Source: Granulicoccus phenolivorans DSM 17626 = NBRC 107789 = JCM 15570 (GTDB taxonomy: Bacteria; Actinomycetota; Actinomycetes; Propionibacteriales; Propionibacteriaceae). From it: a stretch of 64,000 nt of DNA. The position numbers and the translations under genes are program-made. Position 1 is the stretch's first letter, and each line of letters begins with the position of its first letter. Shown here piece after piece: positions 20,375-62,437 of the stretch. Location: NCBI RefSeq assembly GCF_000423085.1, contig NZ_AUHH01000013.1:1-64000 (forward strand), written 5' to 3'. Under the pieces are notes generated by a model. It was not told the origin of the DNA. It made no database searches and worked only from the letters and a program-made list of their open reading frames with translations.

Positions 20375-20446
20375 CGCCCCCGCGAGGATTCGAACCTCGG
20401 CTCCCGCCTCCGGAGGGCGGTGCTCTATCCCCTGAGCTACGGGGGC
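20375..20446 (-). tRNA. tRNA-Arg (anticodon CCG)
   Basis: A 72-nt cloverleaf: acceptor GCCCCCG with CGGGGGC, D-arm GCTC/GAGC, anticodon stem CCGCC/GGCGG around loop CTCCGGA (anticodon CCG), and T-arm CGAGG-TTCGAAT-CCTCG. The discriminator base is G and the CCA end is not encoded. It reads CGG codons, frequent in this GC-rich genome, and stands alone upstream of lysA. Confidence 0.96.
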
Positions 20447-43215: not shown

Positions 43216-43878
43216 GTGCGTTCTGTTGCTGTGCTGTTTGCTGCCGGGCTGTTGGTGCTGTCGCTGAGCGGCTGTGCGCCCCGCGCCGGGCGTTCGGGTG
43301 GGGAGGGTGCGCAGAACGCCGCCGGATGCGTGTACAACCCGTCAGGGACCCCGGCCAAGGTGGTGGATCCGCCGCCGACCGGGGATGTTCCGACGAGCGG
43401 GCAGGTGCTGTTCACGCTGACCACCAATCAGGGCGATCTGCGGATCACCGCCGACCGCGGGCGTACGCCGTGCACGGTGAATTCGTTCTCCTCGCTGGTG
43501 CAGCAGGGCTTCTACGACGACACGCAGTGCCACCGGCTGGTCGACATGGGGATCTTCGTGCTGCAGTGCGGGGATCCGACCGGGACCGGCACCGGCGGCC
43601 CCGGCTACCGATTCGCCGATGAGACCCGGCCCGAGGACACCTACCCCGCGGGGACGGTGGCCATGGCCAACGCGGGGCCGAACACCAATGGCTCGCAGTT
43701 CTTCCTGGTGTACGAAGACTCCGTATTGCCGCCCAATTACACGGTGCTGGGCCGGATGGACGCCGAGTCCACCGGGGTAGTGGCCCGGATCGCAGCCGAG
43801 GGGCACGGTGGGCAGCCGGGGGAGGGCGTACCGAACAACGAGGCGCGGATCATTCGGGCGACCCAGACCCCGCTGTGA
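43216..43878 (+). CDS. Cyclophilin-type peptidyl-prolyl isomerase, lipoprotein
   Basis: A 220-residue exported protein. The signal ends in a lipobox (LSLSGC, Cys20). The cyclophilin domain spans about 60-215 with NSFSSLVQQGFYDDTQCHRL, TVAMANAGPNTNGSQFFLVY and YTVLGRM. It should catalyse prolyl isomerisation of secreted proteins at the outer face of the membrane. The GTG start is set by the -10 and by the signal peptide. Confidence 0.92.
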   Translation: MRSVAVLFAAGLLVLSLSGCAPRAGRSGGEGAQNAAGCVYNPSGTPAKVVDPPPTGDVPTSGQVLFTLTTNQGDLRITADRGRTPCTVNSFSSLVQQGFYDDTQCHRLVDMGIFVLQCGDPTGTGTGGPGYRFADETRPEDTYPAGTVAMANAGPNTNGSQFFLVYEDSVLPPNYTVLGRMDAESTGVVARIAAEGHGGQPGEGVPNNEARIIRATQTPL

Positions 43879-44044
43879 TTCGGAATCAGCGGTAGGGCCG
43901 ACTCCCGGCGGGGCTGGCTGGAGTCCCGGTGGGGCTGGAGTCCCTGGCGGCCTGGGTTCCGGCGGGGACTCCCGGGTATGCGCGACCGTGCAGTTGTCGG
44001 GGGTATCGGACACTTCCACCGGTGCGTGGGCTCTGTCATCGCGT

Positions 44045-44128
44045 AGGTGGGCCGATCCTGCCACCAGGAGCTCGGAATCCGGCATTTTTGGGCTGGTGGG
44101 GTCATCTGGCGGCAGGATCCGCCCACCT
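44045..44128. repeat. Imperfect inverted repeat, 21-bp arms
   Basis: Arms at 44045-44065 and 44108-44128 pair at 19 of 21 positions around a 42-nt loop. It could be a miniature palindromic element or a large RNA hairpin. Confidence 0.75.
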
Positions 44129-44308
44129 GTCCCAGCGCACCACTGCAGCAGTGGCCCATCGCGATGGTGCGGGCGCCGATCCGGGCCACCGAGCAGGCCT
44201 GGTCGCCGTGGGGATGGGTGACTGTGGTGGGTTGGGCGCGGTCAAGTCCGGTGGGTTGGGTCGCTGTGGTGGGCTGGGTGGCGGGGCGGGTTGAGGCACG
44301 GCAGAAGG

Positions 44309-44378
44309 AACGAGCGAAGGGCCATGTCGGGGAGCGAGTACTGCTGAGATCGCTCCTGGGGCTGACTCTTCGCTCGTT
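44309..44378. repeat. Nested palindrome, copy 1
   Basis: Outer arms aacgagcgaag and cttcgctcgtt are a perfect 11-bp match. The inner arm ggggagcga pairs with tcgctcc at seven bases. A 248-249 bp step separates it from copy 2. Confidence 0.85.
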
Positions 44379-44557
44379 TGGTTGACCCTTCGCCGCCCGA
44401 CCAGGAATCCTCGCCGTCCGACCACAGATCGTCGCCGCCCAGCCAGGAATCCTCGCTGCCCGGCTACGTGGCTTCGCTGCTGGGCCTGCTCCGGCTGCTG
44501 CCTGGCGTCGTCCCCTCGCTGCACGTCCTGGAGCGCGTGCGGGGCCATCAGTCCGGG

Positions 44558-44627
44558 AACGAGCGAAGGGCCATGTCGGGGAGCGAGTGCTGCTGAGATC
44601 GCTCCCCGGCCTGAATCTTCGCTGGTC
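44558..44627. repeat. Nested palindrome, copy 2
   Basis: Inner arms ggggagcga and tcgctcccc pair perfectly; the outer right arm has changed to cttcgctggtc, keeping seven pairs. Confidence 0.85.
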
Positions 44628-44805
44628 GGTTCCCCCTTCGCTGCCCGACCACAGATCGTCGCCGCCCGACCACAGATCGTCGCCGCCCGACCAGGAACCC
44701 TCGCTGCCCGGCTACGTGGCTTCGCTGCTGGGCCTGCTCCGGCTGCTGCATGGCGTGGTCCCCTCGCCGCGCGTCCTGGAGCGCGTGCGGGGCCATCAGA
44801 GCGGG

Positions 44806-44875
44806 GACGAGCGAAGGGTCATAGCGGGGAGCGAGTGCTGCTGAGATCGCTCCCCGGGCTGAATCTTCGCTGGTC
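44806..44875. repeat. Nested palindrome, copy 3
   Basis: Same structure as copy 2, with gacgagcgaag on the left and cttcgctggtc on the right; inner arms perfect. The step to copy 4 is 227 bp, shorter than the others by exactly one 21-bp unit. Confidence 0.85.
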
Positions 44876-45032
44876 GGTTCCCCCTTTCGCTGCCTCACTA
44901 CAGATGGTCGCCGCCCAGCCACGAATCGTCGCCGCCGGCTATGTGCCTTCGCTGCTGGGCCTGCTCCGGGTGCTGCGTCGCGTGGTCCCCTCGCTGCACG
45001 TCCGGGAGCGCGTGCGGGGCCATCAGTCCGGG

Positions 45033-45102
45033 AACGAGCGAAGGGCCATGTCGGGGAGCGAGTACTGCTGAGATCGCTCCCCGGGCTGAATCTTCGCTCG
45101 TT
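45033..45102. repeat. Nested palindrome, copy 4
   Basis: The most regular copy: outer arms 45033-45043 and 45092-45102 (11 bp) and inner arms 45053-45061 and 45074-45082 (9 bp) are all perfect, with symmetric 9-nt and 9-nt internal loops and a 12-nt apex. Confidence 0.9.
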
Positions 45103-45112
45103 TGATCCAGCT

Positions 45113-45301
45113 TCGCCGCCCGACCAGGAATCCTCGACGCCCGCCCACTAATCGTCGCTGCCCGACCAGGAGCCCCCGCTGCCCGACCAGGAGCCCCCGC
45201 CGCCCGGCCAGGAGCCCTCGCCGGCCGACCAGAAATCCTCGCCGCCCGAGCAGGAATCCTCGCCGCCCGAGCAGGAATCCTCGCGGCCCGGTCACGGAGC
45301 C
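45113..45301. repeat. 21-bp tandem array, nine copies
   Basis: Nine consecutive 21-bp units of the type tcgccgcccgaccaggaatc plus c. Shorter runs of the same unit fill the spaces between the four palindromes. In minus-strand translation they give GFLVGRR-like heptads. Confidence 0.88.
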
Positions 45302-45354
45302 AGTCCAGAGCCCAAGACCCTCCCTGACCGGGCCCCGGCGTACAGGATGCCCGC

Positions 45355-46122
45355 TCAGGCCTCCAGGAAGGCCTTCAGAGCCTTGGTGAACAACTCCGGC
45401 TGATCGGAGTGGACCCAGTGCCGGGCACCCGGGATCAGGATCTTCTCGGCGTTCGGGAACAGCCGGTACAGGGCCTCGTCGTATTCGGGCAGGACATAGT
45501 CCGACTCGGCGCCGCCGATCAGCAGGGTCGGCTTGGTGAAGGGCTCCTCAGTGACCTCGGGGAAGGCCCGGACCACATTCATCCGGCGCGCGAGCAGGTC
45601 CAGATTCATGTGCCAGGACCAGGTCCCGGTCTTGGGGTCGCGGTGCAGATTCTGCAGCAGGAACTGCCGGACCGCATTGCTGTGCACGCCCTGGCTCTCG
45701 AGCCAGTCCTCGGCGTCGCGGCGTCGTTCCAGCGCGTCCAGATCCATGCTCTGCATCGCCGCGATCATCACATCGAAGTCCCGCCCGGGCGGGTAGGTGA
45801 CCGGCTCGGAGTCGACCAGGACCAGCTTGTGGATCATCTCGGGGTGGCGCAGGGCGATCAGCATCGCGTTCTTGGCACCCATCGAATGCCCGACCAGGTC
45901 GATCGGGGCCCACTGCTCGAGGAACTCCGCGATCTGGTCGGACATCGAGATGTAGGTGAAGTCCTCGGTCCAGGACGAGCGGCCGTGGTTGGGGGCATCG
46001 ACCAGGACGGTGTGCCGGCTGAGCGCTCGCGCGGGCGAGGTCCAGTTCCGCCCCTGCCCGAACACGCCGTGCAGGAAGGCGACCGTGGGTGTCCCGTGCC
46101 CGTACTCGGTGTAGTGAATCAA
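45355..46122 (-). CDS. Alpha/beta-fold hydrolase
   Basis: A 255-residue hydrolase of the YbfF/epoxide-hydrolase-like group. FLHGVFGQGRNWT is the oxyanion segment, DLVGHSMGAKNAML the nucleophile elbow with Ser, VLVDAPNHGRS a conserved early Asp loop, and GARHWVHSDQPELF the catalytic His. The start is taken as TTG at 46122 because GGGAG lies 5 nt before it; no ATG or GTG fits better. It starts 28 nt after the small upstream gene and is the last of the minus-strand unit. Confidence 0.85.
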   Translation of the reverse strand: MIHYTEYGHGTPTVAFLHGVFGQGRNWTSPARALSRHTVLVDAPNHGRSSWTEDFTYISMSDQIAEFLEQWAPIDLVGHSMGAKNAMLIALRHPEMIHKLVLVDSEPVTYPPGRDFDVMIAAMQSMDLDALERRRDAEDWLESQGVHSNAVRQFLLQNLHRDPKTGTWSWHMNLDLLARRMNVVRAFPEVTEEPFTKPTLLIGGAESDYVLPEYDEALYRLFPNAEKILIPGARHWVHSDQPELFTKALKAFLEA

Positions 46123-61696: not shown

Positions 61697-61816
61697 TGCG
61701 ATGGAATCTGAGGGCCTCGGGCTTCCTGCGACGGAATGTGACGGCGTCGGTCTTCCTGCGATGGAATCTGACGGCGTCGGTCTTCCCGCGATGGAATCTG
61801 ACGGCCTCCCACTTCT
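61697..61816. repeat. 30-bp tandem array, four copies
   Basis: Units at 61697, 61727, 61757 and 61787, each of the type tgcgatggaatctgacggcg plus tcggtcttcc, with one to six changes between copies. Confidence 0.88.
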
Positions 61817-62264
61817 GGCGATAGTCACCTTGACCCCGCGACGGGAACCGCGTACCAGCTGGCCCTGCAGCAGCTGCGGGAAGGGGGTGCTATCGCCGGG
61901 TGGCTCGAACCGGCGCGGGATCGACTGCGGCCATCGAGATTCGGAACCAACTCTGGCCGCTGCCGGGGATCATGCCTCCGCGAGTCGGCCGATGGCCGCC
62001 CGGCGGCACCGGCCATCGAGCGATGGCCAGGGCCAGGGTCCGTGGGCAACCCACCGGACTTGACCAACCCGCTGGCAGCGACTCCCGGCAAGGGGCCATG
62101 GCTCCGGCACGGTGGCTCCCGGTACCGGGGCGATGACTCCAGCACCGGGGGATGGCTCCCGCGCCGGGCGATGGCTCCGGCGATCGGGCGATAGCAGGCG
62201 CATTCCGCGATTGCTGCACCACCCACGAGGTCACTGTTGCGATCGCTGGGTGTCTTCAGCCAAC

Positions 62265-62354
62265 GCGGGAGGCCGAGGCCCGGCAGGATCTATCGCGGGA
62301 GGCCGAGGCCCGGCAGGATCTGTCGCGGGAGGCCGAGGCCCGGCAGGATCTGTC
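62265..62354. repeat. 30-bp tandem array, three copies
   Basis: Units at 62265, 62295 and 62325, nearly identical (one base change), of the type gcgggaggccgaggcccggc plus aggatctgtc. Unrelated in sequence to the 61697 array but with the same period. Confidence 0.9.
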
Positions 62355-62437
62355 GCGGGGAGCCCGCAGGAGCCGCGCGGCGGCCCGAAATCCACGGTCA
62401 CCGGGCCTGCGTTGTGGGTACCTGCAAGAATGCAGCC

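Follow-up and report, generated by a model that had tools for sequence, protein, structure and literature searches.

What is the nested palindrome that occurs four times between two genes of Granulicoccus phenolivorans: a structured RNA, a binding site for a protein, a mobile repeat or a product of the assembly? We addressed this question in the window, that is, the whole stretch of 64,000 nucleotides that was analysed, and in other genomes. The array in the window proved to be a single locus of a modular DNA repeat that is dispersed between genes. Its unit is a head, consisting of two AGCGA words followed by two TCGCT words at steps of 20, 17 and 20 bp, to which a polar, one-sided tail is added in most copies.

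The original prediction described four nested palindromes of about 70 bp. Their starts (44309, 44558, 44806 and 45033) and steps (249, 248 and 227 bp) are as described, but the arms are not perfect in every copy. The outer arms AACGAGCGAAG and CTTCGCTCGTT are exact in copies 1 and 4 only; the outer arm end reads CTTCGCTGGTC in copies 2 and 3, and copy 3 starts with GACG. The inner arm TCGCTCCCC is exact in copies 2 to 4 and reads TCGCTCCTG in copy 1. The short step of 227 bp was correctly recognised as the preceding one minus exactly one 21-bp unit, and units of this length were also found by TRF. The sequence between the copies, which had been called conserved, is so in part: GCGCGTGCGGGGCCATCAG has three occurrences (44533, 44781 and 45008), whereas GCTGCTGGGCCTGCTCCGGC is exact at only two places (44476 and 44724). 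The array lies in a gap of 1.5 kb (43879–45354) flanked by convergent isomerase and hydrolase genes, in the interior of a contig of 97,188 bases, and a codon-usage gene caller placed no gene inside this gap. The features of the locus are as follows.

43216–43878, forward strand: left neighbour, a cyclophilin-type peptidyl-prolyl isomerase gene (Pfam PF00160)
44313–44374, forward strand: head 1, AGCGA-N15-AGCGA-N12-TCGCT-N15-TCGCT (palindrome 44309–44378)
44390–44478, forward strand: tail of head 1, five TCGCY words at steps of 20, 21, 21, 21 and 21 from the outer head word
44476–44557, forward strand: conserved linker from the tail to the next head, also present at about 44724–44805 and about 44951–45032
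44562–44623, forward strand: head 2 (palindrome 44558–44627)
44638–44726, forward strand: tail of head 2, five TCGCY words at 21-bp steps, the first 19 bp from the outer head word, one base under the rule
44810–44871, forward strand: head 3 (palindrome 44806–44875)
44887–44953, forward strand: tail of head 3, four TCGCY words at steps of 20, 21, 21 and 20
45037–45098, forward strand: head 4 (palindrome 45033–45102)
45113–45290, forward strand: tail of head 4, a 21-bp unit repeated 8.5 times (consensus TCGCCGCCCGACCAGGAATCC), the first 19 bp from the outer head word
45355–46122, reverse strand: right neighbour, a convergent alpha/beta hydrolase gene (Pfam PF12697)

The same gap holds a separate inverted repeat at 44045–44128 (arms of 23 nt, 91% complementary, 38 nt apart), in which the TCGCT word was not seen. 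Elsewhere in the window, a 36-bp unit stands in two tandem copies (97%) at the very start (1–72), and tandem repeats of period 30 are found at 61697–61822 (3.7 copies) and 62264–62359 (3.2 copies).

The repeat extends beyond the window. A BLAST search of its own genome with copy 4 (45033–45102), as the original prediction had proposed, returned 14 matches at 13 places on seven contigs, and these matches keep the words of the head core AGCGA-N15-AGCGA-N12-TCGCT-N15-TCGCT with at most one base changed. Scanning the genome for this pattern with up to three mismatches gave 33 places (17 without a mismatch, 13 with one, 3 with two and none with three). Since both AGCGA and TCGCT are the same when read backwards, the words were turned inside out (FFRR) in the built-in control, which had no match in this genome at up to three mismatches. 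The backward-read control pattern is uninformative because TCGCT is the same backwards, and its 37 matches sit on head-carrying contigs. With 33 matches against none for the FFRR control, chance is excluded for the four-word pattern, and the array is, as had been thought, a real repeat that keeps some of its parts and not others.

The spacing of the words was equally regular. When exact words were searched and each outer gap was allowed to vary from 5 to 30, the 19 matches comprised 18 distinct sites and one overlapping register (19/15); all but one of the distinct sites (17 of 18) had gaps of 15/15, the other, on contig C45, having 14/15. Because free outer gaps still give 15/15, the outer spacing holds throughout the genome and was not imposed by the search. 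With the C45 variant, the copies found in this genome amount to 34. Where both flanking words lie at 20, the inner step is either 17 (17 cases) or 37 (8 cases), the latter being the distance to the next word out, and takes no other value. A spacing spectrum of 18 loci in this genome has its main peaks for words of the same orientation at 20–21, 40–42 and 61–63 (24 and 33 being less frequent, with 13 and 10 counts) and for AGCGA to TCGCY at 17, 37 and 57, while no value from TCGCY to AGCGA exceeds 6.

The copies are spread over about 16 loci, mostly amid housekeeping-type genes, a count in which the contig ends C14/C16, C12/C53 and C14/C47 were joined by judgement and two gaps on C7 were taken as one. 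The 33 copies are intergenic: 28 were checked and do not overlap any called gene, and the remaining 5 lie in the same intergenic regions. Ten of these regions have called genes on both sides, of which five are convergent, four tandem and one divergent. A coding heptad repeat, with 21 bp as seven codons, was rejected, as the 20-bp steps and the occurrence in both orientations break the frame and 0 of 28 copies overlap gene calls. An assembly artefact could be suspected from the several sister arrays at contig ends; it is nevertheless extremely improbable, as the architecture recurs in independent genomes, and an assembly duplicate is excluded because the window copies differ from each other and their array sits inside a contig. 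The end of C12 and the start of C53 carry the same array, flanked by genes for a 2-oxoacid dehydrogenase acyltransferase and a lipoyl ligase; given the common end array and those flanking genes, the two contigs are probably neighbours that were broken at the repeat.

The tail was then evaluated on all 33 heads, without selecting them for having one. Outward from the outer head words, TCGCY occurs at +20 on 20, at +41 on 16 and at +62 on 18 of the 65 readable sides (66 in total), with further peaks at +83 and +104 (9 sides each) and a mean of 0.39 at other offsets. At exact offsets, one or more of tail words 1 to 3 accompany 24 of the 33 heads, on one side. If one base either way is allowed, tail words are present on one side in 27 heads (three words in 15, two in 7 and one in 5) and absent from 6, and no head has them on both sides. 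A long symmetric tail-to-tail hairpin is ruled out, the tails being one-sided. In an alignment of 24 heads, whose polarity was assigned from the words themselves with a consequent upward bias and from which the nine heads without assigned polarity were omitted, the columns of tail words 1 to 3 hold 1.09, 0.76 and 0.98 bits and the spacers 0.32, with words 4 and 5 dropping to 0.22 and 0.35.

How well the different parts of the unit are preserved bears on how it arose. Overall, the copies are 87% identical within a locus and 67% between loci. Between loci, the words are 94% identical, a value inflated by the word-based retrieval of the 33 heads, against 54% for the spacers. Neutral tandem-repeat DNA, grown by slippage and gene conversion and owing its spacing to copying only, would explain the greater likeness within a locus and the length steps of 21 bp. 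It would be hard to reconcile with spacers that diverge down to 54% between loci while words and spacing persist, nor does it sit well with the recurrence of the spacing in other genera with unrelated spacers (see below), and we think it improbable.

The stems had originally been considered to be kept while the flanks vary, which was taken as a sign of selection on structure or of a replicating repeat. The kept part is instead four short words at fixed spacing, and the element further has a one-sided tail in one orientation, which no hairpin needs. Single-strand DNA folds of the palindromes had z values of −2.8 to −8.9 in 11 elements chosen for folding, although good folds are expected anyway because the inverted words alone would give such values. 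The proposed check for compensatory changes found none at the variable arm positions of 22 non-redundant heads, where pairing is close to the expectation for independent columns: observed and expected counts are 14 and 15.1 for positions 17/46, 14 and 10.5 for 20/43 (the largest excess), 16 and 13.4 for 11/52 (the next excess) and 7 and 10.0 for 14/49, several others also being below expectation. We conclude that word identity and spacing matter in the element, arm pairing being about what independent columns would give.

Signals expected of a transcript were also sought. At the gathering thresholds of Rfam 15, the sole match in the whole window is a tRNA at 20375–20446, with none for the element. 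The four sub-threshold matches in 43880–45354 are to microRNA or lncRNA models, the best being the MIR528 microRNA model (E 0.0077, 26.9 bits against a cut-off of 62). No promoter-like site was found in 43700–45500, and terminator-like sites (a hairpin followed by a T-run) numbered 0 there, with 0.6 expected. At two loci (L003 and L007) the element lies past a terminator-like hairpin, as read by eye. As the main reading, a hairpin RNA is rejected on account of the absent covariation, the sub-threshold scores of the Rfam matches and the one-sided tail in one orientation. More broadly, a structured RNA, 3′ end or terminator whose nested hairpin acts in the transcript could appeal to the low predicted energy of that hairpin, to near-perfect arms in some heads of another genus (g37, see below) and to the intergenic position of the elements, with 5 of 10 fully flanked regions convergent. 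The lack of compensatory changes, of an Rfam family and of promoter- or terminator-like sites over the ranges just given, tail words of one orientation that are unable to pair with each other and the position past the hairpins at L003 and L007 all speak against it, and we judge it to have little chance of being correct.

Searching 84,980 species genomes, a set that may omit the own genome, for the exact pattern gave a locus in Enemella dayhoffiae and another in Mumia xiangluensis; the two species belong to the Propionibacteriales, and both loci were read as intergenic. In the family, 6 of 198 genomes match at up to two mismatches, with 33 places in the own genome, 5 in E. dayhoffiae (G117) and 1 in each of four others, and none for the FFRR control. 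In the order, 11 of 391 genomes match, including two of genus g37, G409 with 4 matches and G369 with 2, and the FFRR control has 2. Three of the six g37 genomes match in all (G409 with 4, G369 with 2 and G415 with 3); this genus is most likely Mumia because G415 carries the Mumia element letter for letter, and its heads include near-perfect palindromes (L036, L073). The single matches in G103, G106, G123, G285, G360, G411 and G414 are probably due to chance, and so, with less certainty as it has only one mismatch, is that in G178. At up to one mismatch, a scan of 394 genomes of the class, sampled without G117 and the three matching g37 genomes, found the own genome only. Viral contigs had no match to the exact four-word pattern, and plasmids and phages had none to window positions 44300–45300 in a search that needs similar DNA.

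The E. dayhoffiae spacers are unrelated to those of G. phenolivorans. Eight further loci in that species were located by a 14-mer (seven) or by BLAST (one) and not by the four-word pattern, and in all eight the outer words are separated by 57 bp (10 heads in total), against five pairs for all other distances in the range 40 to 80. The inner words are mostly lost there, both being exact in 0 of the 10 heads, and the apex is itself palindromic. Over 13 E. dayhoffiae loci, same-orientation steps cluster at 20–23, 31–34 and 41, the exceptions being two steps of 8 and one of 26. These steps take in the 20s of the head itself, and those within a tandem are not independent of one another. The 14-mer, GGTTCGCTGGATGG, occurs 21 times in E. 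dayhoffiae and in 0 of 4 congeners; one congener (G013) has a single related element, in which three of the four words are present. After a gene read as dnaA, the E. dayhoffiae site is filled, while the three congeners aligned (G120 was left out) have a shorter gap without the element. The copies thus come and go, and since they are lineage-specific, no old, indispensable function is implied. A different E. dayhoffiae stretch (L055:2685–3012) has dozens of partial matches (66–87% identical) across four of the five Enemella genomes searched and is unrelated to the element.

Such turnover would fit a selfish miniature mobile repeat of the REP or MITE kind. According to this explanation, a transposase recognises the palindrome, perhaps as a single-stranded hairpin, the words are sites of the enzyme and there is no host function. 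Dispersal to about 16 loci, mostly among housekeeping-type genes, fits it, as do the filled and empty sites next to dnaA in E. dayhoffiae and the three aligned congeners and the predicted DNA hairpins of the 11 chosen elements. However, a genome-wide search, made for the Y1 transposase family (PF01797) only, was negative in 10 of 10 genomes (a control search was positive in 5 of 14). The 30 proteins scanned with Pfam near the elements, which include every flanking gene called and among them catalase, SRP54, PEPCK, the 2-oxoacid dehydrogenase acyltransferase and the lipoyl ligase, comprise no transposase, integrase or replication initiator, two of them having no Pfam match. No direct repeat abuts 32 of the 33 heads and one of 4 nt abuts the other, element ends being blurred by the tail. 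A polar tail of direct repeats, moreover, is not predicted. We regard a mobile repeat as possible but doubtful.

Among known systems, the nearest kinds are the REP/BIME and BOX repeats. In one account, REPs are extragenic palindromes of 20–40 bp with a high copy number, a GTAG/CGTC tag and a cognate Y1 transposase (PMC3733652), and in another, BIMEs are described as binding sites for several proteins (PMC2817692). The present element resembles them as a dispersed intergenic palindrome with modular mosaics and lineage-specific copies. It differs in its 62–70 bp with four fixed words, its 34 copies and its polar direct-repeat tail, and within 12 nt outside the outer words GTAG was found on 0 and CGTC on 5 of 66 sides. 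The lack of the tag and of a Y1 transposase, together with the size and the polar tail, sets it apart from REPs, and a REP/RAYT system is ruled out for want of the tag rule and of that transposase. The original suggestion of a protein-binding, nucleoid or REP-like element thus comes close to our best reading but fails in the GTAG/RAYT sense of REP, whereas the statement that no family could be recognised still holds, the repeat having matched none of the families searched.

BOX elements of pneumococcus have the layout boxA-boxB(n)-boxC. They share with the present repeat a modular build with a variable number of internal units; the resemblance is one of module layout, in an unrelated organism. 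MITEs carry a target-site duplication around an inverted repeat and vary in presence or absence at orthologous sites; the latter feature is shared at one E. dayhoffiae locus (G117 against the three congeners aligned). The iteron arrays of plasmid origins are direct repeats of 17–22 bp in helical register, with an adjacent Rep gene and origin function. In anatomy only, they are similar to the direct repeats found here, which lie about two helical turns apart (steps of 20 or 21) beside an inverted repeat of the same word; unlike iterons, these occupy many chromosomal loci, with no replication initiator among the 30 scanned proteins. Plasmid iterons or a phage origin were rejected, as plasmids and phages did not match window positions 44300–45300 in searches that need similar DNA and viral contigs did not match the exact four words. 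The literature searched, which lies mostly outside the subscription journals, contained no description of a head-and-tail repeat family.

The reading that we favour, at close to an even chance, is that the arrays are a modular repeat of helically phased, putative binding sites for a sequence-specific DNA-binding protein. The TCGCT and TCGCY words would be the sites of this protein, and steps of about two turns (20–21 bp) would align them along a single face of the double helix. A dimer or a dimer of dimers may sit on the inverted head words, and further subunits could be added head-to-tail on the direct repeats of the tail, yielding a polar nucleoprotein array whose role would most likely be chromosome organisation or insulation between genes. 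Copies would spread and recombine as mosaic modules, and tails change in length by 21-bp slippage. The protein-binding and mobile-repeat readings overlap, as the binder could be the mobilising enzyme.

Several results argue for phased binding sites: the 33 four-word places against none for FFRR, the 15/15 gaps at 17 of 18 sites with outer gaps left free, and an inner step of 17 or 37 only where both flanking words lie at 20. The polar tail (one side in 27 of 33 heads, both sides in none), with word columns above the spacer bits, points the same way, as do words conserved at 94% against 54% for spacers between loci, arms without covariation, and the same spacing with other spacers in E. dayhoffiae and genus g37. 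On the other hand, the constant spacing of the tail could partly stem from tandem slippage or duplication alone, and two of the four window tails, those of heads 2 and 4, begin at 19, one base closer than 20. The E. dayhoffiae heads have mostly lost their inner words and have a palindromic apex, and the near-perfect g37 palindromes (L036, L073) are equally explained by a hairpin.

A more specific proposal, in our opinion rather unlikely, is that a conserved and as yet undescribed chromosomal DNA-binding protein of the Propionibacteriales forms a polar phased filament, with nucleation on the head and one-way growth along the tail. In that case the arrays would serve to organise or insulate the chromosome. 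Selection would act on word identity and spacing only, leaving the DNA between the words to change freely, even from one genus to another. Whereas bacterial interspersed repeats are mostly defined by their sequence, this one is defined by its spacing. If the binder exists, the arrays would be a new kind of chromosomal protein array for the Propionibacteriales; if not, the element would be an unusual miniature repeat without a known transposase.

As to what such a binder might be, the half-site of ClgR resembles TTCGCT/AGCGAA, and a helix-turn-helix (HTH) gene, which we take to be ClgR-like, lies near one array, another HTH gene abutting one head. The ClgR operator consensus is given as WNNWMGCYNNNRGCGWWS (PMC2905415), and its half-sites, TCGCT followed by AGCGA, point towards each other across about 8 bp. 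A ClgR box was therefore rejected for its wrong order and spacing; facing half-sites at that spacing occur here in one case, with no peak. At locus L005 (1172–1447, on contig C6 of the own genome), a tail-less head has a small Cro/C1-type HTH gene ending about 50 bp before it and a small protein without a Pfam match starting about 50 bp after it. It is conceivable that the Cro/C1-type protein is a candidate for the binder.
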